DNA from: an uncultured Williamsia sp.
GTDB taxonomy: Bacteria > Actinomycetota > Actinomycetes > Mycobacteriales > Mycobacteriaceae
Direction of reading: 5' to 3'
Length of the DNA: 64,000 nt
NCBI RefSeq assembly: GCF_947494875.1
Contig: NZ_CANLWM010000009.1
Location: 186,001-250,000, forward strand
Shown piece by piece: positions 10,654 through 50,073 of this stretch. The notes below the pieces were generated by a model that made no database searches, was not told the DNA's origin, and was given only the letters and a program-made list of their open reading frames with translations. The position numbers and the translations under genes are program-made. Each line of letters opens with the position of its first letter. Position 1 is the stretch's first letter.

Positions 10654-10770
10654 TTTCCCGGAGGGCGTGGCCGCATCATGTCGCGCCCGATTGCACGCCC
10701 GCGTCACCTCACCCGTGGTGAGCGGAACCGACGATCACACACCGGATCTCGAGTCGAGGAGTCGACAGAC

Positions 10771-35062: not shown

Positions 35063-36289
35063 ATGGTCGAGGCGGGCGCGGTTGCGCTCATGGTGCTGGC
35101 GCTCGCGTTCGCCGTCTGGCGGCCGCGGGGCCTGCCCGAGGCGACGGTCGCGGTCCCGGCCGCCGCGATCGCCATCGCGGTCGGCGCGGTGACCCTGAGC
35201 GAGGCGTTCGACGAGATCCGCACACTGGCCACGACGGTCGCGACCCTGGCCGCTCTGTTGGCGCTCTCGCATGCCTGCGAGGTGCTCGGGGTGTTCGGCT
35301 GGGTGTCCCGGCAGATCGGGCGCGCCGGCGCGGGCAACGGCCGGCGGCTGTTCGCGCTCGGATTCGTCGGTGCCGCCGTCACGACCGCGGCACTGAACCT
35401 CGACGCGACAGTCGTCCTGCTGACGCCCGTGCTCATCGCGGTCACGCGCGGACTCGGTGTCCGACCGCGGCCGCTCTCGGTGGCGACGATCAGCCTCGCC
35501 AACGCGGCGTCGTCGCTGATGCCGGTCTCGAATCTCACCAATCTGCTGGCGTTCTCGGCCACCGGTCTCGGCTTCGGGCGGTTCACCGTCCTGATGGCAC
35601 TGCCCTGGCTCGCGACACTCGTCGTCCAGTACGCGGTGCACCGCTGGTGGTTCCGCCACGAGATCGCCGACGTCCCCGACAGTGCGCCCCAGGACCCGGG
35701 GCCGGCCCCGATCGCCGCGCTCGTCGTCCTCGCAGCGACCCTCGTCGGCTTCGTCCTGTCGTCGCAGGTCGGTGTGGAGCCGGTCTGGTTCGCGACCGCC
35801 GGCGCGGTCGTCCTCACCGTGATCGCCGTGGTGCGCAGGGCATCCGGACCTGTCGACGTCGTGCGCGCGATCAACCCGCTGTTCCTGCTGTTCGTGTTCG
35901 CACTGGGTGTCCTGGTGGCAGCGATCGCCGACGGCTCGATCGGCCGCTGGCTCGCCGGGATCGTGCCGCACGGCACCGGCCTGCTCGCCCTGCTGGGTGT
36001 CGCGGCGATCGGCGCCGTGGTCGCCAACATCATCAACAACATCCCCGCGACGCTGCTGCTGCTCGCCGCGATGTCGGGCGCCCCGACCGTCGCGCTGCTG
36101 GCGATGCTCCTCGGGGTCAACATCGGGTCGAATTTCACCTACGTCGGCTCGCTGGCGAACCTGCTGTGGCGGCGCATCGTCAGCCGCGACGGCGTAGCGG
36201 TCTCAGCGGGCGGGTTCTCCGCGCTCGGTCTCGTGGCCGGTGCGCCCTCGATCGTCGCCGCTGTCGCCGCACTGTGGTCGGTGAGCTGA
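35063..36289 (+). CDS. SLC13/ArsB-type (ion transporter superfamily) permease
   Basis: 408 residues with 10-11 hydrophobic helices. NLDATVVLLTPVLIAV in the first half and NIINNIPATLLLLAAM plus LLGVNIGSNFTYVGSLAN in the second are the paired re-entrant motifs of the ArsB/NhaD/CitM-type ion transporter superfamily. The substrate (arsenite, Na+/H+ or a carboxylate) cannot be told; there is no arsR, arsC or arsA beside it. ATG at 35063 follows GGGAGCG. It marks the end of the conserved backbone before the accessory island. Confidence 0.83.
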   Translation: MVEAGAVALMVLALAFAVWRPRGLPEATVAVPAAAIAIAVGAVTLSEAFDEIRTLATTVATLAALLALSHACEVLGVFGWVSRQIGRAGAGNGRRLFALGFVGAAVTTAALNLDATVVLLTPVLIAVTRGLGVRPRPLSVATISLANAASSLMPVSNLTNLLAFSATGLGFGRFTVLMALPWLATLVVQYAVHRWWFRHEIADVPDSAPQDPGPAPIAALVVLAATLVGFVLSSQVGVEPVWFATAGAVVLTVIAVVRRASGPVDVVRAINPLFLLFVFALGVLVAAIADGSIGRWLAGIVPHGTGLLALLGVAAIGAVVANIINNIPATLLLLAAMSGAPTVALLAMLLGVNIGSNFTYVGSLANLLWRRIVSRDGVAVSAGGFSALGLVAGAPSIVAAVAALWSVS

Positions 36290-36630: not shown

Positions 36631-37356
36631 TCAGGAGCGCGGTCGACCACCGACCACCGCGCTGAGTCGACCGACGGATTCGACCGCCACAGCAGCGTCG
36701 GCCCCGTCGAACACCGCGGCGTGGATGCCCCGCATCGCGCCGGTGATGATCTCCGCCGAGGCGCGGACGTCGACGCCGTCCTCGATCTGACCGCCCTCGA
36801 TCCCCTCCGCGATCAGAGCGGCCACCGCATCGACGAAAGCCGCGTGCCAGTTCTCTGCCGGCCCGTCGCCACGAGGGACACCGACGTCTCGGAACAGCAC
36901 GTGCGCCGCAGGTGTCTCGTAGATGCTCCGGGCTGCGATGGTCAGGAACACACCGAGCTGTTCGAGCGGGGTCGCAGGCCACGCGACGTCGTTCGCGGCG
37001 GCACCGATGGCGTCGATGAGTCGGGTGGCCGCGTCGTCGACCGCCGCCTGGAACAACTCCGCCTTGCCGGAGAACGTGTGGAAAGCGGTGCGCTGCGCGA
37101 CATCGGCGCGCGCGGCTACCGCCTCGACCGTGATCGACGCATAGGTGTTGTCGCGCAACATGTCCTGCGCCGCGCCGATCAACCGTTCGCGAGTGGACCC
37201 ACCGGGGTCATGACGCGACTCCTTGGCCCAGCGATACAGCGTCGCGCTGTGGACACCCAGTTCCGTTGCGACCGCGTCACAGTCCTCCTTCCCGCCGAAG
37301 GCACGCAGAACCGCCGAGTGCCGTTGGGCGGCGGTGAACCGCGACTGTCGAGCCAC
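36631..37356 (-). CDS. TetR-family regulator with an additional N-terminal HTH
   Basis: 241 residues. Residues 1-45 resemble a transposase/homeodomain-like HTH: RFTAAQRHSAVLRAFGGKED then VATELGVHSATLYRWAKES. The TetR DNA-binding domain follows (about 52-100): TRERLIGAAQDMLRDNTYAS, VEAVAARADVAQRTAFHTFSG. The rest is a helical ligand/dimer domain. Two HTHs in a TetR protein are unusual. I chose GTG at 37356 (VARQSRF) because TACGTT lies six bases upstream; the GTG at 37392 would put that promoter inside the gene. It is divergent from an SDR-NmrA-P450 set and probably controls it through the palindromes at 37411-37435. Confidence 0.82.
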   Translation of the reverse strand: MARQSRFTAAQRHSAVLRAFGGKEDCDAVATELGVHSATLYRWAKESRHDPGGSTRERLIGAAQDMLRDNTYASITVEAVAARADVAQRTAFHTFSGKAELFQAAVDDAATRLIDAIGAAANDVAWPATPLEQLGVFLTIAARSIYETPAAHVLFRDVGVPRGDGPAENWHAAFVDAVAALIAEGIEGGQIEDGVDVRASAEIITGAMRGIHAAVFDGADAAVAVESVGRLSAVVGGRPRS

Positions 37357-37362
37357 GACGAC

Positions 37363-37368
37363 AACGTA
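37363..37368 (-). promoter_or_regulatory. leaderless -10 box of the TetR gene
   Basis: TACGTT on the minus strand, six bases before the GTG at 37356. It decides the start codon chosen. Confidence 0.5.
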
Positions 37369-37410
37369 CGAGACCGGCAGCACCGACGCCACTTGAATAC
37401 GCGAACACTT

Positions 37411-37477: not shown

Positions 37478-38257
37478 ATGGCCTTCACGCCGTCGCGCTC
37501 GCTCATCACCGGCGCCAGCGCCGGGATCGGTACGGCACTCGCGCGTCGCCTAGCCGAACGCGGCTCCGACCTCGTGCTGGTCGCCCGGCGGGAAGATCGA
37601 TTGCGCGCGTTGGCGTCCGAACTCGAATCCCGGTATGGGATCACGTGTGACGTCGTCGCCCTGGACCTCTCCGGCGATCGCCCGGGCGCGGCGTTGCGGG
37701 CGCGAGTCGCGGGCGACGTCGACCTGGTGGTCAACAACGCCGGGGTCGCCACCCAGGGGTTGTTCATCGACGCCGACACCGCCGATCTCGACCGCGTCAT
37801 CGCTGTCGACATCGCCGCACTGGTCGACGTGTGTCATGCATTCCTGCCCGGAATGGCAGCACGCCGTTCCGGCACCATCCTCAACGTGTCGAGCACCACG
37901 GCGTTTCAGCCCGTGCCGACCCTGGCGGTGTACGCGGCGGCGAAATCGTTCGTCCTCAGCTTCACCCAGGCCCTGTGGTGTGAGGCCCGCGAGCACGGTG
38001 TCCGGGTGATGGCGCTGGCACCCGGACCGACCGAGACCGAGTTCTTCGACGTGATCGGCGAGAACGCCGCCGTCGTCGGGTCGATGCAGACCGCCGATCA
38101 GGTGGCGCGCACGGCACTGTCGGCGCTCGACCGGCGATTCCCTCCGCTGTATGTCGTCTCCGGGCGACGCAACACCCTGGCCGCCGTCGGCGCCCGTGTC
38201 GCACCCAAGCGGGTGCTCCTCCCGGCCCTCGCGCGATCGATGCGCCAGTTCACCTGA
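37478..38257 (+). CDS. short-chain dehydrogenase/reductase
   Basis: 259 residues, classical SDR of the DltE-like type. It carries the cofactor motif TGASAGIG (12-19), NNAGVAT, catalytic Ser in LNVSSTTAF and YAAAK. An acceptor of NADP(H) is suggested by VARREDRL after the second strand. The substrate is unknown. I use ATG at 37478 with CCGGAGGAACTC directly upstream rather than the ATG at 37436, which falls within the operator region. First gene of the set divergent from the dual-HTH TetR; an NmrA-like gene follows after 48 bases. Confidence 0.9.
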   Translation: MAFTPSRSLITGASAGIGTALARRLAERGSDLVLVARREDRLRALASELESRYGITCDVVALDLSGDRPGAALRARVAGDVDLVVNNAGVATQGLFIDADTADLDRVIAVDIAALVDVCHAFLPGMAARRSGTILNVSSTTAFQPVPTLAVYAAAKSFVLSFTQALWCEAREHGVRVMALAPGPTETEFFDVIGENAAVVGSMQTADQVARTALSALDRRFPPLYVVSGRRNTLAAVGARVAPKRVLLPALARSMRQFT

Positions 38258-38305: not shown

Positions 38306-39295
38306 ATGTCCACAGTTCTCGTCACCAGTGCCGCCGGCGGCGTCGGCCGCCCCCTCGTCCGCGGACTGAGCGCCCGGGGCGCGACCGTCCGCGCACTCGT
38401 CAAGAACGACGCCCAGGCGTCGCTCGCGCGGCGTGACGGGGCGACCGAGATCCGCGTGGGCGACATGCGCGACGCCGCCACCCTCGACGAGGCCATCCGC
38501 GGCGCGGACGGGATGTATCACGCGGCGCCGACGCAGATCATCGACGAGGGCCCGATCGCCGAGCACATCGTCGAGCTCGGCACGCGACACGGACTGTCCC
38601 ACCTCGTCTTCCACTCGGTCATCCACCCGGAGATCACCGAACTGCCGCACCACACGCAGAAGGAGTCCGTCGAGAGACTGCTGGCCACACAGTCCATCCC
38701 CACGACGATCCTGCGGCCCTCGCACTACATGCAGAACTACCTCGATTTCTGGGAGTTCATCCGGGGCGGGCTGATGCCCTATCCGGTGTCGACGACCAGC
38801 CCGATGGGCGTGGTCGACGTCGAGGACGTCGCCGAGGCCGCCGCGGTCGTGCTGGCCGCGCCCGACGAGCACATCGGGAAGACCTACGACCTGTCGACCG
38901 AGACGATCACCCGCGATGCGATGGCGAGCTGCTTCGCCGACGCGCTCGGCCATCCTGTGACCGCTGTTCGCCTGCCCCCGACCGCTGTCGTCAACCAGGC
39001 CGGCGCCGCCGCTGCCGTCCTGAGCGGGGTTGCCCGCGCGATCCCCACTCTGTCGCCGCGGCGCGCGATCCACCTGCTGAACGGGATGAAGGACGCCCCG
39101 AACGCCCGCGGGATCCGGTCCTGGTCGTCGGAAGCCCGCGACAACTACGTGCAGATGATGACCTACTACGACACCCATGGCCTGCCCGTCGGCGACCTGA
39201 CACACCTCCCGGCACTGCTCGATCGCGCGCCCACCGGCTTTCGCGAGTTCGCGCGCCGCGAGGTCGACCGGCGCGTGCACGACACCCGTCGCTGA
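38306..39295 (+). CDS. NmrA-like NAD(P)-binding oxidoreductase
   Basis: 329 residues. The N-terminus VLVTSAAGGVGRPLVRGLSARG is the atypical-SDR Rossmann motif. GDMRDAATLDEAIRGADGMYHAA, the FHSVIHPEI segment and PTTILRPSHYMQNY fit the NmrA/HSCARG group. Catalytic Tyr/Lys are not obvious, so it may be a redox sensor rather than an enzyme. The C-terminal 70 residues (NARGIRSWSSEARDNYVQMM and on) are typical of actinobacterial NmrA-type proteins. AAGGAGAAG precedes the ATG. Confidence 0.85.
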   Translation: MSTVLVTSAAGGVGRPLVRGLSARGATVRALVKNDAQASLARRDGATEIRVGDMRDAATLDEAIRGADGMYHAAPTQIIDEGPIAEHIVELGTRHGLSHLVFHSVIHPEITELPHHTQKESVERLLATQSIPTTILRPSHYMQNYLDFWEFIRGGLMPYPVSTTSPMGVVDVEDVAEAAAVVLAAPDEHIGKTYDLSTETITRDAMASCFADALGHPVTAVRLPPTAVVNQAGAAAAVLSGVARAIPTLSPRRAIHLLNGMKDAPNARGIRSWSSEARDNYVQMMTYYDTHGLPVGDLTHLPALLDRAPTGFREFARREVDRRVHDTRR

Positions 39296-39407: not shown

Positions 39408-39434
39408 GTGATCACACACCCGGAGGAGCAGCCG

Positions 39435-40742
39435 ATGTCGTTCGCCCTGGAGTCCGCCCGCAGGCGCACCCATTGGATGGCCACGCATGGGCTCGTGCGT
39501 GCCGCCGCGCCGCTCGGTGCGCGCCTGGGAGATCTCCAGGCCCGTCTGATCAGCGACCCGCAGGTCCGCGTCGACCCCGGTCCCGTTCACCGCGAGATCC
39601 GGTCACGGGGTCCGATCGCACGCGGCAGGCTGGCGGATGTCACGGTCGACCACGCGGTGGTGCGAGATGTGTTGCGGTCCGATGACTTCCGCACCGCCGG
39701 CTCGGGTCCGCAAGGCCCGAAGATCATCGCCGCGATCGAACAGCGCACTCGCACGGACGGATTGCACCCCCTTCGCCCGCCCTCCCTGTTGGCCACGGAG
39801 CCCCCGTCGCACACCACCTATCGCAGGCTGGTGTCGTCGGTGTTCACCGCGCGCGCGGTCGCGTCGATGCGCGACAACGTCGAGCTGACGGCCACCCGCC
39901 TTCTCGACGAACTCGACGGCGAGACAGGCACGGTGGACATCATCGATCGGTACTGCGCTCGACTCCCCGTTGCGGTCATCGGTGACATCCTCGGCGTACC
40001 CGAGGACGAACGCGACCGCGTTCTCGAGTTCGGCGAGCTCGCGGCCCCCAGTCTGGATCTCGGCCTGTCGTGGTCGGAGAGCTGCCGAGTCGACGACGGG
40101 CTGTCCCGATTCATCGAATGGCTCCACGGGCACCTCGCCAGGCTGCGGGAGAACCCTGGCGACGACCTCATGAGCCAGCTGATCGCCGCACGTGACGACG
40201 GAGTGGCCCTGACGGAGCAGGAACTGCTCGCGACGGCGGGCCTCGTGCTCGCCGCAGGATTCGAGACCACGGTGAACATCCTCGGCAGTGGCATCGACCT
40301 GTTGACCACACACCGGGACCAGCTCGAGGTCCTCACCGCGAGTCCGGATCTCTGGGCCAACGCCGCCGACGAGATGCTCCGCCTGCGATCACCGGTCCAG
40401 ATGACCGCCCGTGCGACCGTGCGCCCGACCGAGGTCGGGGGGACCACGCTGCCCGCTGACCGGCTCATCCTGCTGGTACTGGCCGGCGCGAATCGCGATC
40501 CCGCCGTGTTCGACGACCCCGACCGCTTCGACGTGACCCGCGAGAACGCGAACAAGCACCACTCGTTCTCCGGTGGTCGCCACTTCTGTCTCGGGGCAGC
40601 ACTGGCGCGCGCCGAGACCGAGGTCGGCCTACAGACCCTCTTCGAGCGATTTCCGGACCTCGTCCGCGCCGGGCAACCGGTTCGCCGCAACACCCGTGTG
40701 CTGCACGGGTACTCGTCCTACCCGGTGCGTCTGCACGGGTGA
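39435..40742 (+). CDS. cytochrome P450
   Basis: 435 residues, soluble bacterial class. The haem-binding loop FSGGRHFCLGAALARAE has the ligand C385. The I-helix acid/alcohol pair is in AAGFETTVN and the K-helix ExxR is EMLR; ATEPPSHTTYRRLVSSVFT is the C-helix region. No ferredoxin or ferredoxin reductase gene is adjacent, so electrons must come from elsewhere in the genome. The substrate is unknown; the neighbouring SDRs could oxidise a hydroxyl it installs. GGAGGAG lies before the ATG at 39435. Confidence 0.93.
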   Translation: MSFALESARRRTHWMATHGLVRAAAPLGARLGDLQARLISDPQVRVDPGPVHREIRSRGPIARGRLADVTVDHAVVRDVLRSDDFRTAGSGPQGPKIIAAIEQRTRTDGLHPLRPPSLLATEPPSHTTYRRLVSSVFTARAVASMRDNVELTATRLLDELDGETGTVDIIDRYCARLPVAVIGDILGVPEDERDRVLEFGELAAPSLDLGLSWSESCRVDDGLSRFIEWLHGHLARLRENPGDDLMSQLIAARDDGVALTEQELLATAGLVLAAGFETTVNILGSGIDLLTTHRDQLEVLTASPDLWANAADEMLRLRSPVQMTARATVRPTEVGGTTLPADRLILLVLAGANRDPAVFDDPDRFDVTRENANKHHSFSGGRHFCLGAALARAETEVGLQTLFERFPDLVRAGQPVRRNTRVLHGYSSYPVRLHG

Positions 40743-40756
40743 ACCGGCAAGGCTCT

Positions 40757-40786
40757 GTTGACTGAGAGTCAACGAATGCTTAGGGT
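40757..40786 (+). promoter_or_regulatory. regulated promoter of the SDR-acyltransferase-hydrolase operon, with 17-bp palindrome
   Basis: GTTGACT-GAG-AGTCAAC (40757-40773) is a perfect palindrome whose left arm contains the -35 box TTGACT (40758-40763). TAGGGT (40781-40786) is 17 bases downstream as the -10 box. The same layout recurs at 44261-44290. A repressor bound here would block RNA polymerase. The TetR gene at 43457 is the nearest candidate regulator. Confidence 0.75.
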
Positions 40787-40846: not shown

Positions 40847-41644
40847 GTGCGAACCGCAGTTGTCACCGGCGCATCGTCCGGGATCGGCAGGGCGACAGCC
40901 GAAGCGCTGATCGCCGCCCACTTCCGGGTCATCGGGACGAGCCGCGACAGCCGGTCAGTCGTGGATCCCGTTCCCGGAGTGCACTATCGCGACCTCGATC
41001 TCGCGTCACCCGAGTCGATCCGAGTGTTCGCGCACGGGTTGTCCGACACCGAGGTCGACGTCCTGGTGAACAACGCCGGCGAGAGCCAGTGCGGGCCGTT
41101 GGAGGAGCTCCCGGCCGAGGCACTCGAGCGGCTCTTCCGGTTGAACGTGCTGGGACACATCGAGTTGACCCAGCTGATCCTCCCGGCGATGCGCGCACGC
41201 AGGCAGGGGCGGGTCGTGTTCGTCGGCTCGATGCTCGCCAGCTTCCCACTGGCCTTCCGGTCGTCCTATGTGGCGAGCAAGGCAGCGCTGAAGGGATTCG
41301 CGACGGCCGCACGGCTCGAACTGGCGCCGTTCGGCGTCCACCTCACCACCGTCGAACCCGGATCGATCGACACGGGCCTGTCCGATCGCCGGACGAAGTA
41401 CATCGCGGACGACTCGCCCTATCGGAAGGCGTTCACGACCACCGTCGCCGCCCTCGACGAGAAGGAGTCACAGGGGATCTCGGCTGATCGTGTCGCACAG
41501 ACGATCCTGCGCGCCGCGACCGCCCGGCGACCGGAGCCCCTCTACGCGATCGGCAGCCGAGCGCCCATGGTCTTCGCCGCGCGCCGCCTGCTCCCCCGCC
41601 GGGTGATCGAGTCGGTCATGGCCCGCTCCTACGGCCTGAGCTGA
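40847..41644 (+). CDS. short-chain dehydrogenase/reductase
   Basis: 265 residues. MRTAVVTGASSGIGRATAEA gives the glycine motif, VLVNNAGES follows, Ser is in VFVGSMLASFPL and the catalytic pair is YVASK. The C-terminal part (PLYAIGSRAPMVFAARRLLPRRV) resembles SDRs acting on lipophilic or steroid-like substrates, but this is only suggestive. GTG at 40847 with GAGG upstream. First gene of a three-gene unit driven by the palindromic promoter about 75 bases upstream. Confidence 0.9.
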   Translation: MRTAVVTGASSGIGRATAEALIAAHFRVIGTSRDSRSVVDPVPGVHYRDLDLASPESIRVFAHGLSDTEVDVLVNNAGESQCGPLEELPAEALERLFRLNVLGHIELTQLILPAMRARRQGRVVFVGSMLASFPLAFRSSYVASKAALKGFATAARLELAPFGVHLTTVEPGSIDTGLSDRRTKYIADDSPYRKAFTTTVAALDEKESQGISADRVAQTILRAATARRPEPLYAIGSRAPMVFAARRLLPRRVIESVMARSYGLS

Positions 41645-41665: not shown

Positions 41666-42424
41666 ATGGACGACGCGGCGCGAAAGGTGCTCGACGCGAC
41701 GATCGCGATCGGTCGGCTCTACCACCGGATCAGCGCCGAGCAGCGGGCGCCGATGCCCGACGGCCCCGTGCTGTTCGTCGCCAACCACGGCTTCGGTGGC
41801 GTGTTCGATCTCAACGTGCTCGCGTTCGCGTCGGCTCATGACCAGTTGGGCGACACCCGCGACGTCGCCGTCCTCACCCATCAGATCGCGTGGACGCTGG
41901 GCCTCGGGTCGATCCTGGAGAGGTTCGGCTCCGTCCCGGCCGATCACGGGTCCGGACTGCGCGCCCTGCGGTCGGGCAAGCATGCGCTCGTGTTCCCCGG
42001 CGGCGACATCGACGGGTTCAAGTCGTGGACCGACAGGAACAAGGTCCTCTTCGTCGGACGAACCGGATTCGCCCGGCTCGCGATGGACGCCGACGTACCG
42101 ATCGTCCCGGTGGTGACCGCCGGCGCGGGCGAATCCCTCGTCGTGCTGGGCGCGGGACGAAGGCTCGCCCGCCTCGCTCGACTCGACCGTCTCCTGCGCG
42201 TGAAGACCGTCGCCCTCACGGTGTCGCTGCCCTGGGGCGTCAACGCCGGACTGGTGGGACTGCTGCCCTACCTGCCGCTCCCGACGAAGCTGACGACGAC
42301 CATCCTCCCGCCGATGCGGCCCGAACCCGGCGAGTCGGTCGCCGACTACGCGAACCGTGTCCACTCCGCGATGGCGGTGGAACTCAAGGCCCTCACGGCG
42401 GAACGACTGCCGGTGATCGGATGA
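41666..42424 (+). CDS. lysophospholipid acyltransferase-family protein
   Basis: 252 residues. It has FVANHGFGGVFD, with the active-site His and a following Asp at HX6D, and LVFPGGDIDGFKSW, an FPGG motif typical of DGAT2/plant-type glycerolipid acyltransferases. GVNAGLVGLLPYLPLPTKL is a short hydrophobic stretch. It probably transfers an acyl chain to a glycerol or sterol-like hydroxyl; substrate unknown. Its stop overlaps the start of the hydrolase (ATGA). The pairing of acyltransferase and alpha/beta hydrolase suggests acylation and deacylation of one compound (inference). Confidence 0.82.
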   Translation: MDDAARKVLDATIAIGRLYHRISAEQRAPMPDGPVLFVANHGFGGVFDLNVLAFASAHDQLGDTRDVAVLTHQIAWTLGLGSILERFGSVPADHGSGLRALRSGKHALVFPGGDIDGFKSWTDRNKVLFVGRTGFARLAMDADVPIVPVVTAGAGESLVVLGAGRRLARLARLDRLLRVKTVALTVSLPWGVNAGLVGLLPYLPLPTKLTTTILPPMRPEPGESVADYANRVHSAMAVELKALTAERLPVIG

Positions 42425-43386
42425 CTCGCCAGGATGGACTCGGCGGACGCGATGTGTGGGACGGGTATGGCGGCACCCTCCCCGGGGCCGTGTCCACGGA
42501 CGACTGGGCATCATCGGTACGCACCGTGTCGACGCGGACCGCTCGGGTGAGCTGTGTCGACGTGGCCCACGGGGACGGCCCGACGATCGTTCTGCTGCAC
42601 GGCATCTCGGCGAGCTGGAAATGGTTCGCCCACCTGTTCCCAGCCCTGTCGCAGCGATATCGGATCCTGGCGGTGGACCTCCCTGGCTTCGGTGGGTCGC
42701 CGTTCTCGCGGCACCACCTCACCTTCGACGGGCTCGCCGACTCGGTCGTCGATGTGTGCGATGCGCTCGACGTCGACGCGCCGGTCGTCCTCGGCCACTC
42801 GATGGGCTCGTTGGTGGCCACGCGTGTGGCGGTGAGACATCCGGATCGCCTGGCAAGCCTGATCATCACCGGCGGGCCGATCCTCTCCCTGGTGCACCTC
42901 GTCCGACGGCCGGTCGAGACGTTCCGGCGCAGCCCGAGGGCGGTGTCGACGCTGGTGGCCGAGTCGGCGGTGGTGGGTCTGCCGCTCCCGCAGTCCGTCG
43001 CATCCGTCATCGCCGGGTCGGCGCGCCTGCGCCGAGCCGCGCTGGGCGCTTTCGTGGCCCGGCCTGACCTGCTCGACCCCGCGGTCGTCCGCGCCACCAT
43101 GCAGGATCTGGGTGCGCCCGCGACATTCCCGGTTCTCGCCTCGACGGTGACGGGTGATCCCGGGCGCGACCTGGAGCACGTGCGATGCCCGACCCTGATC
43201 CTGCGTGGAGCGCAGGATGCCCTGTCCCCTCCGGATGACGTCGCCCTGTTCCTGTCGCGGGTCCCCTCCGCCGACGAGGTCCGGCTCGACAACACCGGTC
43301 ACTGGCCGCACATCGAACGTCCACGACGGTTCGTCGACGAAGTACACCGTTTCGCGTCACCCGGTGACGCCCCACTCACCCTCTGA
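42421..43386 (+). CDS. alpha/beta hydrolase
   Basis: 321 residues. Oxyanion-hole region LLHGISASWKWFAHLFP, nucleophile in LGHSMGSLVATRV, Asp in LRGAQDALSPPDD and His in NTGHWPHIERP, so the triad is complete. The sequence is of the general esterase/C-C hydrolase type and cannot be assigned between ester, epoxide and meta-cleavage product hydrolysis. ATG at 42421 overlaps the acyltransferase stop. The first 45 residues (DGYGGTLPGAVSTDDWASS) precede the core fold. Last gene before the second TetR. Confidence 0.86.
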   Translation: MTRQDGLGGRDVWDGYGGTLPGAVSTDDWASSVRTVSTRTARVSCVDVAHGDGPTIVLLHGISASWKWFAHLFPALSQRYRILAVDLPGFGGSPFSRHHLTFDGLADSVVDVCDALDVDAPVVLGHSMGSLVATRVAVRHPDRLASLIITGGPILSLVHLVRRPVETFRRSPRAVSTLVAESAVVGLPLPQSVASVIAGSARLRRAALGAFVARPDLLDPAVVRATMQDLGAPATFPVLASTVTGDPGRDLEHVRCPTLILRGAQDALSPPDDVALFLSRVPSADEVRLDNTGHWPHIERPRRFVDEVHRFASPGDAPLTL

Positions 43387-43456: not shown

Positions 43457-44107
43457 GTGCCCGACCCCGCCTCGCGGAAACCCACGAAGCGGGCAGCGCA
43501 GGCGGCGGAGACCAAGGCGCGCCTCATCGACGTCGCCATCGAGGTGTTCTCGGACACCGACTACGACCAGGTCGCGGTGGCAGACATAGCGGCCCGCGCG
43601 AAAGTCGCACACGGCCTTCTCTTCCACTACTTCGGCAACAAGCGCGGCATCTACCTCGCCGCGGTCCGAGCCACCGCCGAACAGCTCAACGCCGCGTTCA
43701 CCTTCGAGCCAGGGGCGACCCCGCGCGAGATGATCCACGGTGCACTCGAACAACACCTCGCCTATCTGCACGAACACCGCGGCCTCGCACTGCGACTCGT
43801 GCTCGGTGGCCGCGGGGTGGATTCCGAGGCATGGGAGATCTACGAGGCGGGCCGATGGCATGCCCTCGAGGCGTTCGCAGGGCTCCTCGGGCTGGAGACC
43901 ACCAACCAGGCACTGCGCGTCGTGGGTCGTGCGGCCGTCAGTGCGATCGACGAGGCCGTGGTGCAGTGGCTCGACGACACCGACGTGATCGACGCGCAAC
44001 GGCTCGTGGCGTGGATGGAGGCCCTGATCGTCGCGTGCCTGGGCACCGCGCCGGTCCTCGACGAGACGTTCGACCTCGACCGTGCGATCCGCGCGCTCGA
44101 CGGTTGA
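43457..44107 (+). CDS. TetR-family regulator
   Basis: 216 residues. The HTH is at about 20-66: ETKARLIDVAIEVFSDTDYD, VADIAARAKVAHGLLFHYFG. The ligand domain begins near residue 75 and is helical. GTG at 43457 follows GAGGAG. It lies between the two operons that share the GTTGACT-N3-AGTCAAC promoter, so it is the leading candidate for the repressor of both. Its own upstream gap lacks the palindrome, so autoregulation through that site is not expected. The inducer is probably a pathway intermediate (inference). Confidence 0.88.
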   Translation: MPDPASRKPTKRAAQAAETKARLIDVAIEVFSDTDYDQVAVADIAARAKVAHGLLFHYFGNKRGIYLAAVRATAEQLNAAFTFEPGATPREMIHGALEQHLAYLHEHRGLALRLVLGGRGVDSEAWEIYEAGRWHALEAFAGLLGLETTNQALRVVGRAAVSAIDEAVVQWLDDTDVIDAQRLVAWMEALIVACLGTAPVLDETFDLDRAIRALDG

Positions 44108-44260
44108 GTCGAAACACCCTCGTCTGACACGGATCTCGGTGTCGGGAGTGGAGCAGCACGAGAACGCCGACTGCCCACCGCGCACCCATCGCACCGACGC
44201 CTCGTCGAGCACCGCCCGGTGGATACACAGCTCTTCGGGGCCGGAGGTCGACCGCGATTC

Positions 44261-44290
44261 GTTGACTTCAAGTCAACTGCTTTGTAACGT
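44261..44290 (+). promoter_or_regulatory. regulated promoter of the FAH-VOC-monooxygenase-E1 operon, with 17-bp palindrome
   Basis: GTTGACTT-C-AAGTCAAC (44261-44277) includes the -35 TTGACT (44262-44267); the -10 box TAACGT (44285-44290) is exactly 17 bases on. This duplicates the promoter at 40757-40786. The preceding 150 bases (44108-44260) have no recognisable feature. Confidence 0.77.
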
Positions 44291-44319: not shown

Positions 44320-45297
44320 ATGGCGATCCGGGTCATCCGGTACACCGACGACGGGGCGACGCACTGGGGGGTCGTCGACGGCCAGGACGTCACCGCGTTG
44401 TCCGACGACTATCCGACGACCGGAGCGCTGCTCGAGAGCGGGCGAGCCGACATCGACGATGCACGCCGCCGGGCTCCGAGCCACACCCTGGCCGATGTCG
44501 ACGTGCAGTCACCGATCACCGTTCCCTGTCGAGTGCTGTGTCAGGGCGCGAACTATCGACAGCACGCCATCGAGTCCGGAATGGACCCCGACAACCGCGC
44601 CTTCAACCTGTTCTTCGACAAGACCGACGCGTCGGTCACGGGTCCGTACGACCCCGTCGAGCGTCCCCGGCACGTGCGCCTGCTCGACCACGAGATCGAA
44701 CTCGCGCTGGTCATCGGCGCGACTGTCGACGGGCCGGTGACCATCACCGACGCCGACCTGCCGCGGTATGTCGCGGCGGTGACCATCGGCAACGACCTGT
44801 CCGCGCGCGATGTGCAGTTGCCCCAGGGCCAGTACCTGAAAGGCAAGAGCTATCGCGGTTTCTGCCCACTGGGACCCGAGCTCGTCCTGTTGGAGCCGGC
44901 CGACTACCCGCTGCTGGACAACCTCGATCTCGAGCTGCGTGTCAACGGCGAGCTGCGACAGACCGACAACACCTCGAACGTCGTCTACCGACCCGCCGAG
45001 TCGTTGACCGAACTGAGCACGTTCTCCAACCTGTCACCCGGGGACGTCGTCCTCACGGGGACACCCCATGGCACCGCCGCCACAGCGCCCCCGGCCATCG
45101 TGCGCCGCCTCGCCGCCGCCCTCCTCCCCGAGCACGTCATGTGGAAGGCGTTCATCCGCCGGAACGAGTCCGGACCGTTCCTCCGGCCCGGTGACACCGT
45201 GACCGCGTCCATCCGCACACCCGATGGAGCACTCGACCTGGGCACCCAGAGGACACCCATCGTCGCCGCGACCACACCGGAAGGCGTTCTCGCATGA
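44320..45297 (+). CDS. fumarylacetoacetate hydrolase-family protein
   Basis: 325 residues. The metal ligands of the FAH fold are E125 and E127 in LLDHEIELALVIG and D159 in IGNDLSARD. The catalytic His/Glu pair is H82/E85 in GANYRQHAIES, and KGKSYRGFCPLGP is the substrate-loop region. FAH-family members hydrolyse C-C bonds of ring-cleavage products, hydrate 2-oxo-dienoates or decarboxylate oxo acids. AGGAGGG precedes the ATG, about 23 bases after the predicted transcription start. First gene of a four-gene overlapping operon with an extradiol-type VOC protein and a flavin hydroxylase. Confidence 0.92.
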   Translation: MAIRVIRYTDDGATHWGVVDGQDVTALSDDYPTTGALLESGRADIDDARRRAPSHTLADVDVQSPITVPCRVLCQGANYRQHAIESGMDPDNRAFNLFFDKTDASVTGPYDPVERPRHVRLLDHEIELALVIGATVDGPVTITDADLPRYVAAVTIGNDLSARDVQLPQGQYLKGKSYRGFCPLGPELVLLEPADYPLLDNLDLELRVNGELRQTDNTSNVVYRPAESLTELSTFSNLSPGDVVLTGTPHGTAATAPPAIVRRLAAALLPEHVMWKAFIRRNESGPFLRPGDTVTASIRTPDGALDLGTQRTPIVAATTPEGVLA

Positions 45298-45920
45298 CCA
45301 CACCGGGCCCGAGCACCATCGCACTGGCGCCCGAGATCCTCGCGCACTACGTCATCAAGACCCCGCGCGCGGCCGAGATGATCGATTGGTACGGAGAAGT
45401 GCTCGGCGCACGCGTCGTCCACGAGGACTCGCAGATCGCCTTCCTGACCTGGGACGAGGAGAGTCACCGGCTCGCACTGGTGAAGATCCCCGGGCTCGTC
45501 GGGCGGCTCTTCCCGCTCGCGCGCTTCCGTCGCAAGGTGATGGGCGTCGACCACCTCGCGTTCACCTACAGCTCCCTGGAGCGGCTGCTGCTCAACCATG
45601 AGCGTCTGACCGCGCTCGGCATCGACCCGGTGTGGTCGATCAACCACGGCCCCACCACATCGCTGTACTACGAGGATCCCGACGGCACGCGTCTGGAGTT
45701 CCAGGTCGAGAACTTCGACACCCCGGAGGAGACCGCCGCGTTCTTCGACAGCGACGAGTTCGCCGAGAACCCGATCGGTGTGACGATCGACCCGACCTAT
45801 CTCCTCGAACGCTTGCGCGCGGGCGATCCGCCGCACGCACTCACCGGCCGCTACGCCGGGGTCCGGCCCGGCACTCGTCCGCGTGTCAACAAGCGCGCCA
45901 TCACCTTCCGTACGCTGTGA
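45294..45920 (+). CDS. VOC-superfamily protein, probable single-domain extradiol dioxygenase
   Basis: 208 residues with one pair of vicinal-oxygen-chelate modules. The metal triad expected of type I extradiol dioxygenases is present: H18 (ILAHYVIKT), H87 (GVDHLAFTY) and E135 (DPDGTRLEFQ). A C-terminal extension of about 65 residues (FFDSDEFAENPIGVTIDPTYLLERL) resembles proteins annotated as dihydroxybiphenyl-dioxygenase-like. It could instead be a glyoxalase-type isomerase; the hydroxylase and FAH next to it favour ring cleavage. ATG overlaps the FAH stop (ATGA), and its own stop overlaps the monooxygenase start (TGATG). Confidence 0.83.
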   Translation: MTTPGPSTIALAPEILAHYVIKTPRAAEMIDWYGEVLGARVVHEDSQIAFLTWDEESHRLALVKIPGLVGRLFPLARFRRKVMGVDHLAFTYSSLERLLLNHERLTALGIDPVWSINHGPTTSLYYEDPDGTRLEFQVENFDTPEETAAFFDSDEFAENPIGVTIDPTYLLERLRAGDPPHALTGRYAGVRPGTRPRVNKRAITFRTL

Positions 45921-47752
45921 TGATCACGCCACCGCACACCCCGGTGGTGATCTGCGGGGCGGGTGCTGCGGGGTCGACCCTGGCCCTCCTGCTCGCATCC
46001 CGCGGGATCCCGTCGACCGTGCTGGATCGGCGTCGTGACCCGCTGGGACATCCTGCAGCGCACGTGATCAACGCACGGTCGCTGGAGATCTGGCGTGAGA
46101 TCGACCCCGATCTCGCCGCGCACGTTGCCGCGCTGTCCCCACCGATCTCCGAGATCAACCTCATCCGGTGGTGTTCGACGATCGGCGCGACCCCGCTCGG
46201 CGAGATCGACCTGTTGTCCGAACCCGAGCAGCTCGAGAGGGTGCGCTCGCACAGCGACTACCTCATCTCCCACGTCGGCCAACACCTGCTGATGCCGCTG
46301 CTGTGGCGACACCTCGACGACGAGCCGCTGGTCTCGTTCCACCGCGACGTCGCCGTCACCGATCTGGTCACCGACCGGTCGGGTATGACCGTCCGCACCG
46401 GATCAGGCTCGGGCACAGCACCGTTCGTCGTCGCGGCCGACGGGGCGAACAGCGTCGTCCGGGACCTGCTCGGCATCACCATGCAGGGACCGGTGCTGGC
46501 ACGGATGGCGAGTGCGTTCTTCCGCTCCCCCGACCTGCATCCCCACGAACGCCCGCTGTTGACGTGGATCTATCAACCCGACTTCGCCGGCGTCCTGATC
46601 GCCCACGCCGACGACCACTACATCCTCATGGGCACGTACGTGCACCCGGGCCAACCGATCGCGTCCGACCCCGAGCGGTACTGGCGCGACGCACTGCCTC
46701 GGGTCCTGGGCGCCGACAAGACCTACGACATCAGGTCGACCGGCACGTGGACGATGACGTCACAGACAGCGTCCGCCTTCCGCAGCGGACCGGTACTGCT
46801 CGTCGGCGACGCCGCTCACCGCTTCCCACACACCGGGGGGTACGGACTCAACAGCGGCGTGCAGGACGCACACAACCTGGCCTGGAAGCTCGACGCGGTG
46901 CTGAACCACCGCGCCGACGACGCACTGCTCGACACCTACGAGATCGAACGTCGGCCGGTGGTGGAACTCTTCGCCGACCACAGCGTGCGCAACCACTTCA
47001 ACCTCGACGCCGTCACCAAGCACTTCGGGGCGACCAACCGGGCACTGCAGACCGTCACGTCCCTGATGGGACGCGCTCCGCTGACCTGGGTTCCCGACGC
47101 TCTCGCGGCGCGGGCGTCAGACCACCTGATCCGTGCCGGCCTGGCCCGCACGGCCATCCTGGGCCGCGACTCCGCTCGCGCCCGACGCGTGCGCGACCGT
47201 GCCGCCCTCGCCATCCCCGACCAGGCGCCCCACTTCGTCTCCACCGGACTGGAGTTCGGCTACCGCTACTCCGGGCCGCTGATCGCCGACGACGGCACGC
47301 CGCCGGGATCGACGGACCCGGAGGAGGTGATCGAGTACCTCCCGTCCGTCGTCGCCGGAGGGCGGCTGCCGCACGTCCCCGTCGACGTCGGCGACGACCG
47401 CCGGTCGATCCTCGAACTGGTCGACCGATCACCGGTCGTGCTGACCGTCGTGACCTCCGATCCCGCTGCCTGGCAGGACCGGCTCGAGGCCGATCTGATC
47501 AGTCCACTCGAGGCCACGACGGTGGACATCGGAGCGGTGTGCGTGGCGCCCGAGTCGGCCGCCGAGCTGTACCGCCTGACCCGCGGCGGCGCCGTGGTCG
47601 TCCGCTGCGACGGGCACATCGTGTGGCACGACGACCGCCCCGCCGATCAGTCCGCCGACGCCCTGCACGCATTCCTCGCGCAGGGGTGGGCGCAGCTCGT
47701 CCCCGCCCGCGCCTCGACCGCAGACGCCCGCACCTCCAGGAGCACCGAGTGA
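45920..47752 (+). CDS. group A FAD-dependent aromatic monooxygenase
   Basis: 610 residues of the phenol hydroxylase/MhpA type. FAD motifs: GAGAAG (13-18), the ADGANSVVRDLLG segment, and the second FAD motif GDAAHRFPHTGGYGLNSGVQ (G296, D297). The last 170 residues, starting around GYRYSGPLI, form the thioredoxin-like C-terminal domain of this class (DRSPVVLTVVTSD). These enzymes use NAD(P)H and O2 to hydroxylate phenols ortho or para, giving a diol for ring cleavage. ATG at 45920 overlaps the VOC stop; a GTG one codon earlier is possible. The E1-like gene starts inside its stop codon. Confidence 0.92.
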   Translation: MITPPHTPVVICGAGAAGSTLALLLASRGIPSTVLDRRRDPLGHPAAHVINARSLEIWREIDPDLAAHVAALSPPISEINLIRWCSTIGATPLGEIDLLSEPEQLERVRSHSDYLISHVGQHLLMPLLWRHLDDEPLVSFHRDVAVTDLVTDRSGMTVRTGSGSGTAPFVVAADGANSVVRDLLGITMQGPVLARMASAFFRSPDLHPHERPLLTWIYQPDFAGVLIAHADDHYILMGTYVHPGQPIASDPERYWRDALPRVLGADKTYDIRSTGTWTMTSQTASAFRSGPVLLVGDAAHRFPHTGGYGLNSGVQDAHNLAWKLDAVLNHRADDALLDTYEIERRPVVELFADHSVRNHFNLDAVTKHFGATNRALQTVTSLMGRAPLTWVPDALAARASDHLIRAGLARTAILGRDSARARRVRDRAALAIPDQAPHFVSTGLEFGYRYSGPLIADDGTPPGSTDPEEVIEYLPSVVAGGRLPHVPVDVGDDRRSILELVDRSPVVLTVVTSDPAAWQDRLEADLISPLEATTVDIGAVCVAPESAAELYRLTRGGAVVVRCDGHIVWHDDRPADQSADALHAFLAQGWAQLVPARASTADARTSRSTE

Positions 47753-50073
47753 GCATCGACGTACCCGAGATCACCCCGGCCTCACCGGAGACCCGGACGC
47801 TCGACGCGATCGCCCGACGTGTCCTGTGGACCTCGACCGCGATCATCCACCACGCCAACCGGGTTCGCCCCAACCCGAGCGGGCTGAAGGTCGGTGGCCA
47901 TCAGGCATCGAGTGCGTCGATGGTCCACATCATGACGTCGCTGTGGTTCGGTCAGCTGCGTGCCGGTGACCGGGTCTCGGTGAAACCTCATGCCTCACCG
48001 GTCCTGCACGCCATCAACCACCTCCTCGGGGAACTCGACGAGCGATGGCTCACGACGCTGCGGGAATACGGTGGACTGCAGTCGTATCCGAGCAGGTCGA
48101 AGGATCCCGACCCCGTCGACTACTCCACCGGATCGGTGGGCATCGGTGCGACCGCTCCGATCTGGGGGGCGATCGCGCGCCGCTACGTCGACACGACCTT
48201 CGGCAGCACGGGCACGGGTCGGCAGTACTCGCTTGTCGGCGACGCCGAACTCGACGAGGGCGCGATCTGGGAGGCCGTGCTCGATCCCAGCGTCGCCGAC
48301 CTCGGGGAGATCGTCTGGATCGTCGATCTGAACCGCCAGTCACTCGACCGGGTGGTCCCGAACATCGCCGCCCGCCGGCTGGAGCAGATGTTCACCGCCG
48401 CGGGGTGGCAGGTCATCACCGTCTCCTTCGGGCACATCCTGGAGAGCCTGTTCGCCCGTGCCGGAGGGGACGCATTGCGCCGTCGCATCGTCGAGATGCC
48501 CAACCCCGAATACCAACGACTTCTGCGATGCTCGGCCGACGAGGTCCGCACCCGGCTGCCCGGCGCCGGCCCCGACGCCGAGGCCATCACCGGCGTCATC
48601 GGCGATCTCGACGACGCGACCCTGCTCGCCGCCGTGGCGAACCTCGGCGGGCACGACATCGACGCGCTGCAGGCCGCGTACGCGCAGATCGACGACACGC
48701 GGCCCACGGTCGTCATCGCCTACACCGTGAAGGGGTTCGGCCTGCCCATCCAGGGCCACCCGCAGAACCACTCGTCGCTGCTCACCGTCGAGCAGTTCGC
48801 CGCCCTCGCCGACACACTCGGCGAGGACGCCGAGAACCCCTGGCGACGGTTCCCATCGGAGTCATCAGAAGGACGACTGTGCGATCAGGTCTCGGCTCGG
48901 CTTCACCGCGACCCGGTTCCCGCGCTGCCCCGACTGTCGGTGCCCCGCGACGTCGACCGCACACCCTCCGCGACGTCCACCACCCAGGCCGCGCTCGGCC
49001 GGGTCCTGCTCGACCTCTCCCGTGAGGCACCCGAGATCGCCGACCGAGTGGTCACTGTCAGCCCTGACGTCAGCTCGACGACGAACCTGGCCGGATGGCT
49101 GAACAAGGTCGGCGTCTGGTCGCCGGCCGAACGGCACAACTGGTTCGCCGACGACGCCGAGACGATCATGCACTGGCGCGAACGACCCACCGGCCAGCAC
49201 ATGGAACTCGGCATCGCCGAGACGAACCTCGTCGGCCTGCTCGGCGAACTCGGCGCCACGTGGAGCCGGTGGGGACAACCGCTGCTGCCGATCGGCGTCC
49301 TCTACGACCCCTTCGTCGAACGTGCACTCGAACCGTGGTCGTTCGGCATCTACGCCGGCGGCCAGTCCATCCTCGTGGGCACCCCGTCGGGCGTCAGCCT
49401 CGCCTCCGAAGGCGGTGCGCACCAATCGATCACGACACCCTCGGTCGGTCTGGAACAGCCCGGATGTGTCACCTACGAGCCCGCGTTCGCGATCGAGGTG
49501 CAGTGGATCCTGCTCGACTGCCTGGCTCACCTCGGGCGACCCGACGGGCGCTCCGCCTACCTGCGTCTGTCCACGCGACCCGTCGAGCAGGGTCTCGCCG
49601 ACGTCCCCGCCGACCCTGCGGCGAGGGAACGCCGACGACGACAGGTCGTCGCCGGCGCGTACCGACTCCGCACCGCGGAGACACCGGCCGCGACCATCGT
49701 CACGATGGGCGCGATGGCGACCGAGGCGATTCGGGCCGCGGAACGCCTGCGGGACATGGACATCGACGCCGACGTCGTCTGCGTCACCAGCCCGGGACTG
49801 CTCTTCCACGCCACGCAGGCCCGCGCCGGTCGACAGGACGCGCCGAGCTGGATCCTCGACAGCGTGTTCCCGTCCGACCGCGCAGCCCCGATGGTGACAG
49901 TCCTGGACGGGCACCCCCACACGCTGGCGTTCCTCGCGACGATCAACGCGGTTCCGTCACGCGCCCTGGGCGTCACGTCGTTCGGTCAGGCCGGATCGCT
50001 CGAAGACACCTACCGACACCACGAGATCGACGCCGACAGCATCGTCCGCGCGACGCTGGACGTCCTCGCCTGA
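47749..50073 (+). CDS. AceE-like thiamine-diphosphate 2-oxo acid enzyme (homodimeric E1 type), orphan
   Basis: 774 residues, a complete transketolase-fold E1. HQASSASMVHIMTSLWFGQL and VSVKPHASPVLHAINHLLG match the first AceE domain. The ThDP motif is GDAELDEGAIWEA (G164, D165) with N near 196 (VDLNRQSLD). The pyrimidine domain has HMELGIAETNLVGLLGELG, and the C-terminal domain ends GVTSFGQAGSLEDTYRHHEI. AceE enzymes are about 890-930 residues; this one begins near the catalytic core and lacks most of the N-terminal region used to dock on E2. No E2 or E3 gene is beside it. It may decarboxylate or ligate a 2-oxo acid made by the upstream ring-cleavage enzymes. GTG at 47749 overlaps the monooxygenase stop (GTGA). 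Confidence 0.9.
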   Translation: MSIDVPEITPASPETRTLDAIARRVLWTSTAIIHHANRVRPNPSGLKVGGHQASSASMVHIMTSLWFGQLRAGDRVSVKPHASPVLHAINHLLGELDERWLTTLREYGGLQSYPSRSKDPDPVDYSTGSVGIGATAPIWGAIARRYVDTTFGSTGTGRQYSLVGDAELDEGAIWEAVLDPSVADLGEIVWIVDLNRQSLDRVVPNIAARRLEQMFTAAGWQVITVSFGHILESLFARAGGDALRRRIVEMPNPEYQRLLRCSADEVRTRLPGAGPDAEAITGVIGDLDDATLLAAVANLGGHDIDALQAAYAQIDDTRPTVVIAYTVKGFGLPIQGHPQNHSSLLTVEQFAALADTLGEDAENPWRRFPSESSEGRLCDQVSARLHRDPVPALPRLSVPRDVDRTPSATSTTQAALGRVLLDLSREAPEIADRVVTVSPDVSSTTNLAGWLNKVGVWSPAERHNWFADDAETIMHWRERPTGQHMELGIAETNLVGLLGELGATWSRWGQPLLPIGVLYDPFVERALEPWSFGIYAGGQSILVGTPSGVSLASEGGAHQSITTPSVGLEQPGCVTYEPAFAIEVQWILLDCLAHLGRPDGRSAYLRLSTRPVEQGLADVPADPAARERRRRQVVAGAYRLRTAETPAATIVTMGAMATEAIRAAERLRDMDIDADVVCVTSPGLLFHATQARAGRQDAPSWILDSVFPSDRAAPMVTVLDGHPHTLAFLATINAVPSRALGVTSFGQAGSLEDTYRHHEIDADSIVRATLDVLA

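Follow-up and report, generated by a model that had tools for sequence, protein, structure and literature searches.

Four adjoining genes in the stretch of DNA analysed here, 64,000 nucleotides from an uncultured Williamsia (hereafter the window), combine a probable ring-opening gene set with an AceE-like 2-oxo acid dehydrogenase. This soil actinobacterium encodes four tightly coupled enzymes that probably open an alkylated phenol and pass the 2-oxo acid so formed on to a dehydrogenase of their own:

44320..45297, plus strand: FAH-fold enzyme (FAH), 325 aa; Pfam FAA_hydrolase, 162.9 bits
45294..45920, plus strand: one-domain VOC extradiol-type dioxygenase (VOC), 208 aa; Pfam Glyoxalase/VOC, 46.4 bits
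45920..47752, plus strand: group A FAD aromatic hydroxylase (FMO), 610 aa; Pfam FAD_binding_3 and Rng_hyd_C
47749..50073, plus strand: AceE-like 2-oxo acid dehydrogenase E1 (E1), 774 aa, GTG start; Pfam Transketolase_N and PDH_E1_M

The four genes (44320-50073) are translationally coupled through ATGA at 45294-45297 (FAH/VOC), TGATG at 45918-45922 (VOC/FMO) and GTGA at 47749-47752 (FMO/E1). A first-pass annotation had named these overlapping codons, all three of which are read directly from the sequence, and had assigned the proteins to the FAH fold, the VOC family, the group A flavin hydroxylases and the AceE-like E1s, as the Pfam matches bear out. Its treatment of hydroxylase, extradiol-type VOC, FAH and E1 as one unit is supported by the coupled frames, the gene order and the proximity of VOC and E1, and the intact H/H/E metal triad that it read in the VOC corresponds to H18/H87/E135, which all 29 aligned sequences keep unchanged. 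It had also proposed looking for the four genes together in other genomes: of 28 window-type genomes, 5 have the exact order on a single contig, and one more has it except that a stop interrupts E1 and the contig is broken.

H58, H118, Y125 and Y126 of the VOC are likewise invariant in the alignment, the second spacing of the triad (48 residues) is the same in IppB (PMC12442392), and the best matches of the VOC model are extradiol dioxygenases. By fold and metal triad the protein is a type I extradiol dioxygenase, with predicted ring-cleaving activity. The FAH, probably a C–C hydrolase, carries the motifs DHEIELAL (E125, E127) and GNDLSARD (D159); it may also be a hydratase, because the FAH Pfam family takes in hydratases as well. 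The motifs of the FMO are GAGAAG at 13, ADGANS at 173 and GDAAHRFP at 296, and its best-scoring solved relatives include 2,4-dichlorophenol 6-monooxygenase and 2-hydroxybiphenyl 3-monooxygenase, both of them ortho hydroxylases.

The E1 can be aligned with E. coli E1 over 735 residues and retains the ThDP motif and most catalytic positions of AceE-type pyruvate dehydrogenase E1 (H51, H81, Y113, GDAELDE at 164, H341, E491 and H558 align with E. coli E1). In contrast to that family, it has a shorter N-terminus, and it is only 30% identical to the genome's canonical AceE, the gene for which lies 2.4 kb past the end of the window. Its score against TIGR00759 (aceE) is 233.4 bits, under the curated cut-off of 859.9, which places it by sequence outside the PDH-E1 equivalog, AceE-like as it is. 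An E1 of the MdeB type, the 2-oxobutyrate dehydrogenases, would group with Pseudomonas MdeB and prefer 2-oxobutyrate; a literature search for mdeB returned no match. Two E1 neighbourhoods carry ACC deaminase or methionine gamma-lyase, a hint that 2-oxobutyrate may be the E1 substrate.

The four genes look like one arm of a larger, apparently co-regulated unit of about 36.6-50.1 kb, whose remaining features are listed below (genes assigned by Pfam unless stated; counts are out of 26 regions, among them one probable duplicate pair, L046 and G214, and with the VOC missed by gene calling at some stretch joins):

36631..37392, minus strand: TetR-family regulator that also carries a transposase-type HTH; neighbour family C13, seen again at related clusters, 6/26 regions
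37478..38257, plus strand: SDR oxidoreductase (SDR1); 10/26 regions
38306..39295, plus strand: NmrA-like oxidoreductase; 13/26 regions
39408..40742, plus strand: cytochrome P450; family C14, 6/26 regions
40758..40772, no strand: operator-like palindrome TTGACTGAGAGTCAA, ahead of SDR2; the genome has it at two places only
40847..41644, plus strand: SDR oxidoreductase (SDR2), first gene past the first palindrome
41666..42424, plus strand: PlsC-type acyltransferase; 8/26 regions
42454..43386, plus strand: alpha/beta hydrolase; 6/26 regions
43457..44107, plus strand: TetR-family regulator; family C5, 13/26 regions
44168..44220, minus strand: short remnants of a second, divergent TetR gene (blastn)
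44262..44276, no strand: operator-like palindrome TTGACTTCAAGTCAA, 43 bp ahead of the start codon of FAH

The exact palindrome TTGACTNNNAGTCAA occurs in the 4.77-Mb genome only upstream of FAH and upstream of the SDR2–acyltransferase–hydrolase–TetR genes, and it recurs at related clusters, in 19 of the same 26 regions. The TetR protein encoded at 43457..44107 is a candidate for binding it. The second TetR gene is open in a Williamsia serinedens relative (L013, 5814-6374), and SDR2 is absent from the neighbour families common to at least 5 of the 26 regions. The limits 44320 and 50073 set by the first-pass annotation thus hold for the four genes themselves and look too narrow for the unit, because the conserved neighbours and the common palindrome extend it to near 36.6 kb.

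Pfam assigned none of the 19 genes predicted between 34.5 and 55.2 kb to an aldolase, aldehyde dehydrogenase, E2, E3 or beta-oxidation family, nor to an AsnC regulator, TetR genes being in its place; acetoacetyl-CoA synthetase, nitroreductase, RibBA and flavin reductase, which mark pathway VIII or ipp-type clusters of Rhodococcus, were likewise not found among these 19. In lacking aldolase and aldehyde dehydrogenase the cluster differs from the classical meta-cleavage pathway, as had been said from the start of the usual lower-pathway enzymes, with the reservation that the FAH may be a hydratase; and the description of the E1 as an orphan is fair, since E2 and E3 are absent from this interval. 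The suggestion that the pathway is undescribed does not hold in full. The same enzyme combination is drawn in PMC6498646, with an unknown substrate, as pathway VIII (VOC, FAH, FMO, AsnC and E1) of Rhodococcus jostii RHA1, R. opacus B4 and R. ruber Chol-4, and a VOC/FAH relative, the ipp cluster of Rhodococcus sp. D-6, degrades 2-isopropylphenol (PMC12442392). The gene set has precedent, and the window version is a divergent one with other regulators. As in the published drawing of pathway VIII, a one-domain DHBD-II-type extradiol enzyme, HpcE/FAH, a PheA/TfdB FMO and an E1 stand in one cluster; the one-domain HHE VOC with its adjoining FAH/HpcE-type gene is a trait of both pathway VIII and ipp, the PheA/TfdB-type FMO one of pathway VIII. 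The window differs from pathway VIII in having TetR genes and a palindrome in place of AsnC beside E1, in the absence of ligase, nitroreductase and RibBA among the genes scanned, in the additional P450, NmrA and acyltransferase genes, and in sequence, identity to pathway VIII-type loci being 36-44% for VOC, about 34% for FAH and about 27% for FMO.

The ipp cluster is a sister without E1, which is absent from the eight ipp genes listed. It shares a one-domain BphC2-like VOC with an HHE triad adjoining a FAH gene, but relies on a group D two-component monooxygenase, whereas the window FMO belongs to group A, and its ring-cleavage substrate is a hydroquinone (PMC12442392). The aed genes of Rhodococcus, its estrogen 4,5-seco cluster, were rejected as a counterpart because AedG/H/J are given for the step there and E1 and FAH are not named in the available part of PMC12507874. 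Among the best-ranked literature matches listed, only PMC6498646 and PMC12442392 bear on such a cluster, and none of those listed was relevant to a thymol gene cluster.

We put at roughly 0.5 the probability that the unit serves the catabolism of an alkylated phenol, perhaps one of terpenoid type, as a regulon probably under TetR control, with a pathway ending in E1. As one possible substrate, the first-pass annotation had thought of a substituted resorcinol or an alkylphenol. The genes, their coupled frames, the cluster-specific palindrome, the conserved active-site residues and the recurrent E1–VOC linkage are established; we infer TetR control, the reaction order, the FAH chemistry and the substrates of the E1 and of ring opening. 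The P450, the SDRs, the NmrA-like protein and the alpha/beta hydrolase would be upper enzymes delivering or trimming the phenol, on whose ring the group A hydroxylase would then place a hydroxyl. The one-domain VOC would open the ring by extradiol-type cleavage, FAH would hydrolyse a C–C bond of the dioxo acid to give an acid and a short 2-oxo acid, and the E1, with E2/E3 from elsewhere, would turn the latter into an acyl-CoA, most likely 2-oxobutyrate into propionyl-CoA. That these last steps amount to a novel aromatic lower pathway (extradiol-type cleavage, FAH C–C hydrolysis, dedicated 2-oxobutyrate dehydrogenase E1) is a tentative idea, to our minds doubtful. If it is true, methyl-bearing ring carbons would exit as propionyl-CoA with no need of a hydratase, an aldolase or an aldehyde dehydrogenase, the E1 of RHA1 pathway VIII would also be explained, and this would be the gene set behind thymol-type ring fission to acids and 2-oxobutyrate, a conversion reportedly observed in work of the 1960s.

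An unlikely alternative course is a hydroquinone route like that of ipp, with para hydroxylation, cleavage of an alkylhydroquinone by the VOC and splitting of a maleylacetone-type product by FAH, while the E1 would serve a side-product or an unrelated 2-oxo acid. This would leave the recurrent E1 linkage unexplained, and the two hydroxylases named above among the best-scoring solved FMO relatives hydroxylate in the ortho position. The top PDB profile match of the VOC speaks for it, being 9u42, a one-domain protein titled homogentisate 1,2-dioxygenase in the structure listing; so does the assay of IppB on 2-isopropylhydroquinone, although the same source places IppA in group D and the window FMO is of group A (PMC12442392). 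It seems quite unlikely, too, that the E1 takes the product of ring cleavage itself, as a vinylogous 2-oxo acid, and makes from it a CoA ester for beta-oxidation, with FAH acting later or as an isomerase. This reading is the closest to what the first-pass annotation had in mind. Its model would be EdcC of the 4,5-seco estrogen pathway, a 2-oxoacid:ferredoxin oxidoreductase which, according to PMC12507874, acts directly after cleavage of the estrogen A-ring, and the coupling of E1 to FMO agrees with it. However, EdcC belongs to the ferredoxin oxidoreductase family rather than to AceE and has a steroid substrate, no beta-oxidation family is present among the 19 genes, and FAH remains with VOC and FMO even in genomes where the E1 is unlinked.

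It is very improbable that the locus is an ordinary pathway VIII under another regulator, the E1 being a mere neighbour from outside ring catabolism. An AsnC/Lrp regulator and E2 are the commonest neighbours of the E1 subfamily, which therefore has an independent life, but a VOC family comes next, lying no more than 6 kb away at 12 of 107 loci, and the E1 is joined to FMO by the GTGA overlap. VOC and E1 lie at most 20 kb apart in 23 of 43 VOC-bearing genomes; L013, L014, L097 and L099, the same places by coordinates as G002, G140, G006 and G010, count only once among the genomes. Linkage with the VOC also changes at least 13 times on the E1 tree, where two genes no more than 10 kb apart in the sequence examined count as linked (contig ends can hide it). 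The tree leaves out identical proteins, proteins shorter than 650 aa up to their first stop, L001-L012 and L103 as short loci, and L014, whose E1 frame has a stop near residue 237.

A central aromatic pathway of RHA1 was still marked 'unknown substrate' in 2019 (PMC6498646). The window cluster, a divergent sister whose regulators are its own and whose operator-like site is confined to it within the genome, offers a handle on the inducer and on what the VOC and the E1 each act upon. Should the E1 be the end step, the counting of meta-cleavage lower pathways in actinobacterial genomes would change.

As a description of the whole E1 subfamily, general methionine or ACC catabolism was rejected, as counts of 1/108 and 0/108 loci do not carry it. 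On three further plasmids of proteobacterial relatives, whose gene tables are incomplete, no methionine gamma-lyase is annotated; AsnC/Lrp adjoins the E1 on two. Pyruvate may be the natural substrate of the E1, but the genome has a separate canonical AceE. A paralogue of the E1 (85%) is present on contig C3.

The first-pass annotation's four genes, with their frames and three overlapping junctions, were borne out on reading the window sequence:

44320..45297, plus strand: FAH
45294..45920, plus strand: VOC protein
45920..47752, plus strand: FMO
47749..50073, plus strand: E1

All four reading frames run uninterrupted from start to stop, and the enzyme families proposed were likewise recovered by Pfam and NCBIfam (FAA_hydrolase; VOC/glyoxalase; FAD_binding_3 with Rng_hyd_C; transketolase/PDH-E1 domains). 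The FMO retains the motifs GAGAAG, ADGANS and GDAAHRFP. The alignment of E1 with E. coli PDH E1 begins at residue 39; histidines, one tyrosine and one glutamate, which we take to be catalytic positions, are retained, while valine replaces E522.

Among 251 genomes of the family, a VOC relative (E <= 1e-15) was found in 43, a member of the E1 subfamily (E <= 1e-150) in 69 and both in 37. By best VOC identity, the 43 genomes were divided into 28 of window type (at least 53%) and 15 that we label 'IppB-like' (38-49%), a label of our own for which residue spacing was verified on a single locus, L027. The distance between VOC and E1 is at most 20 kb in 15/28 window-type and 8/15 IppB-like genomes; E1 is located elsewhere in 11 of the 28 window-type genomes and missing from two. 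Conserved gene order, proposed earlier as a check, was indeed found: FAH-VOC-FMO-E1 occur in exactly this order on one contig in the window's genome (G000), W. serinedens (G002), G006, G010 and G255. Dietzia (G140) has VOC-FMO-E1, with a partial FAH ending another contig, and its E1 (L014 2688-4988; G140:C68) carries an in-frame TGA stop near residue 237.

The unit appears to extend beyond the quartet. Upstream on the same strand, Pfam identifies SDR, NmrA-like, P450, SDR, PlsC-type acyltransferase, alpha/beta hydrolase and TetR genes, the row being preceded by a minus-strand TetR gene. For 26 regions, each around a window-type VOC gene and counting the window itself as well as one probable duplicate, our own gene calls were grouped into families; SDR2 is absent from the neighbour families shared in this census. 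An ArsB/CitMHS-type membrane transporter is encoded upstream of the cluster (window 35063-36289).

Gene families grouped in the 26 regions
FAH: 22/26
VOC: 21/26
FMO: 21/26
E1: 15/26
NmrA: 13/26
TetR, plus strand, upstream of FAH: 13/26
SDR1: 10/26
acyltransferase: 8/26
P450: 6/26
alpha/beta hydrolase: 6/26
TetR, minus strand: 6/26

The cluster is real and conserved, with a cluster-specific palindrome in common. Exact copies of TTGACTNNNAGTCAA stand at 40758 and 44262 in the window (0.01 expected), with no further exact copy in the whole genome, where the reversed pattern gave 0 matches. A further seven genomes carry exact sites, one or two per genome, and in six of the seven these are at the cluster; the G006 site lies 17 kb away from FAH. 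At one mismatch or fewer, 19/26 regions have a site, mostly just 5' of FAH, VOC, NmrA, SDR1, alpha/beta hydrolase or an acyl-CoA-dehydrogenase-type monooxygenase. Palindrome sites totalled 35, against a mean of 0.7 and a maximum of 6 in 40 permuted-arm controls. We read this palindrome as a putative operator to which a dedicated TetR regulator would bind. The W. serinedens relative (L013) has an additional TetR gene, divergent and open, beside the FAH promoter, and comparison with it reveals short leftovers of that gene at window 44168-44220; operon control in the window strain may differ from that in W. serinedens.

The likeliest mechanism, to which we give a probability of about one half, would be phenol hydroxylation, extradiol-type cleavage by the VOC protein, C-C hydrolysis by FAH and acyl-CoA formation by E1. 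The gene list described for pathway VIII of Rhodococcus RHA1/Chol-4, given as of unknown substrate, comprises a DUF1486/nitroreductase, an acyl-CoA-DH-type protein, RibBA, a reductase, DHBD II, HpcE, a PheA/TfdB FMO, acetoacetyl-CoA synthetase, AsnC and PDH E1 (PMC6498646). On that list, the window cluster is close to pathway VIII yet lacks two of its listed features, AsnC and the ligase/nitroreductase set, and its regulators and accessory genes are its own. The earlier suggestion of an undescribed pathway stands only in part, as the kind is partly known. A layout similar to pathway VIII (VOC, FAH, FMO, ligase, AsnC, E1, E2) occurs in R. aetherivorans and R. ruber (L027/L028) and on a Rhodococcus rhodochrous plasmid. 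In the ipp cluster, genes for an FAH protein and a BphC2-like VOC accompany a group D monooxygenase, and E1 is not listed (PMC12442392). EdcC is a precedent for a 2-oxo acid enzyme directly following ring cleavage (PMC12507874).

Rhodococcus relatives (L161 6520-13113, G163) have a longer cluster, with an added GMC-oxidoreductase-like gene and a P450 beside a ferredoxin-reductase-like gene, the GMC and reductase assignments being made by eye; this extension might point to a terpenoid or a hydrophobic alcohol as substrate. The commonest neighbours of the E1 subfamily within 10 kb are AsnC/Lrp (53/108 loci) and E2 (25/108). On one Rhodococcus plasmid a member has ACC deaminase, lipoyl synthase and E2 as its neighbours, and on a Sulfitobacter plasmid a 41% relative comes after methionine gamma-lyase. 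Both ACC deaminase and methionine gamma-lyase yield 2-oxobutyrate, and the Pseudomonas mdeA-mdeB-mdeR layout is similar to these plasmid arrangements. With two cases behind it, 2-oxobutyrate as E1 substrate is a lead.

On a FastTree tree of 113 E1 proteins, the label 'linked within 10 kb' must change 13 times or more along branches with good support (window-type 5, IppB-like 8), and E1 has therefore been repeatedly gained by or lost from such clusters; the IppB-like label clusters no more than shuffles do (114/500 equally low). The window E1 falls together with further linked copies and its own genome's unlinked paralogue, L101 (G000:C3:115086-117404), 85% identical to it; at the thresholds used, no VOC, FAH, FMO, AsnC or E2 relatives were found in the 20-kb stretch around L101. 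Window 10678-12675 encodes a dihydrolipoyl acyltransferase E2, a possible partner of the cluster E1; it has two lipoyl-like repeats, seen by eye and as two separate matches. Just past the window end, the AceE-like gene at G000:C9:252413-254761, only 30% identical to the cluster E1, is probably the canonical PDH E1.
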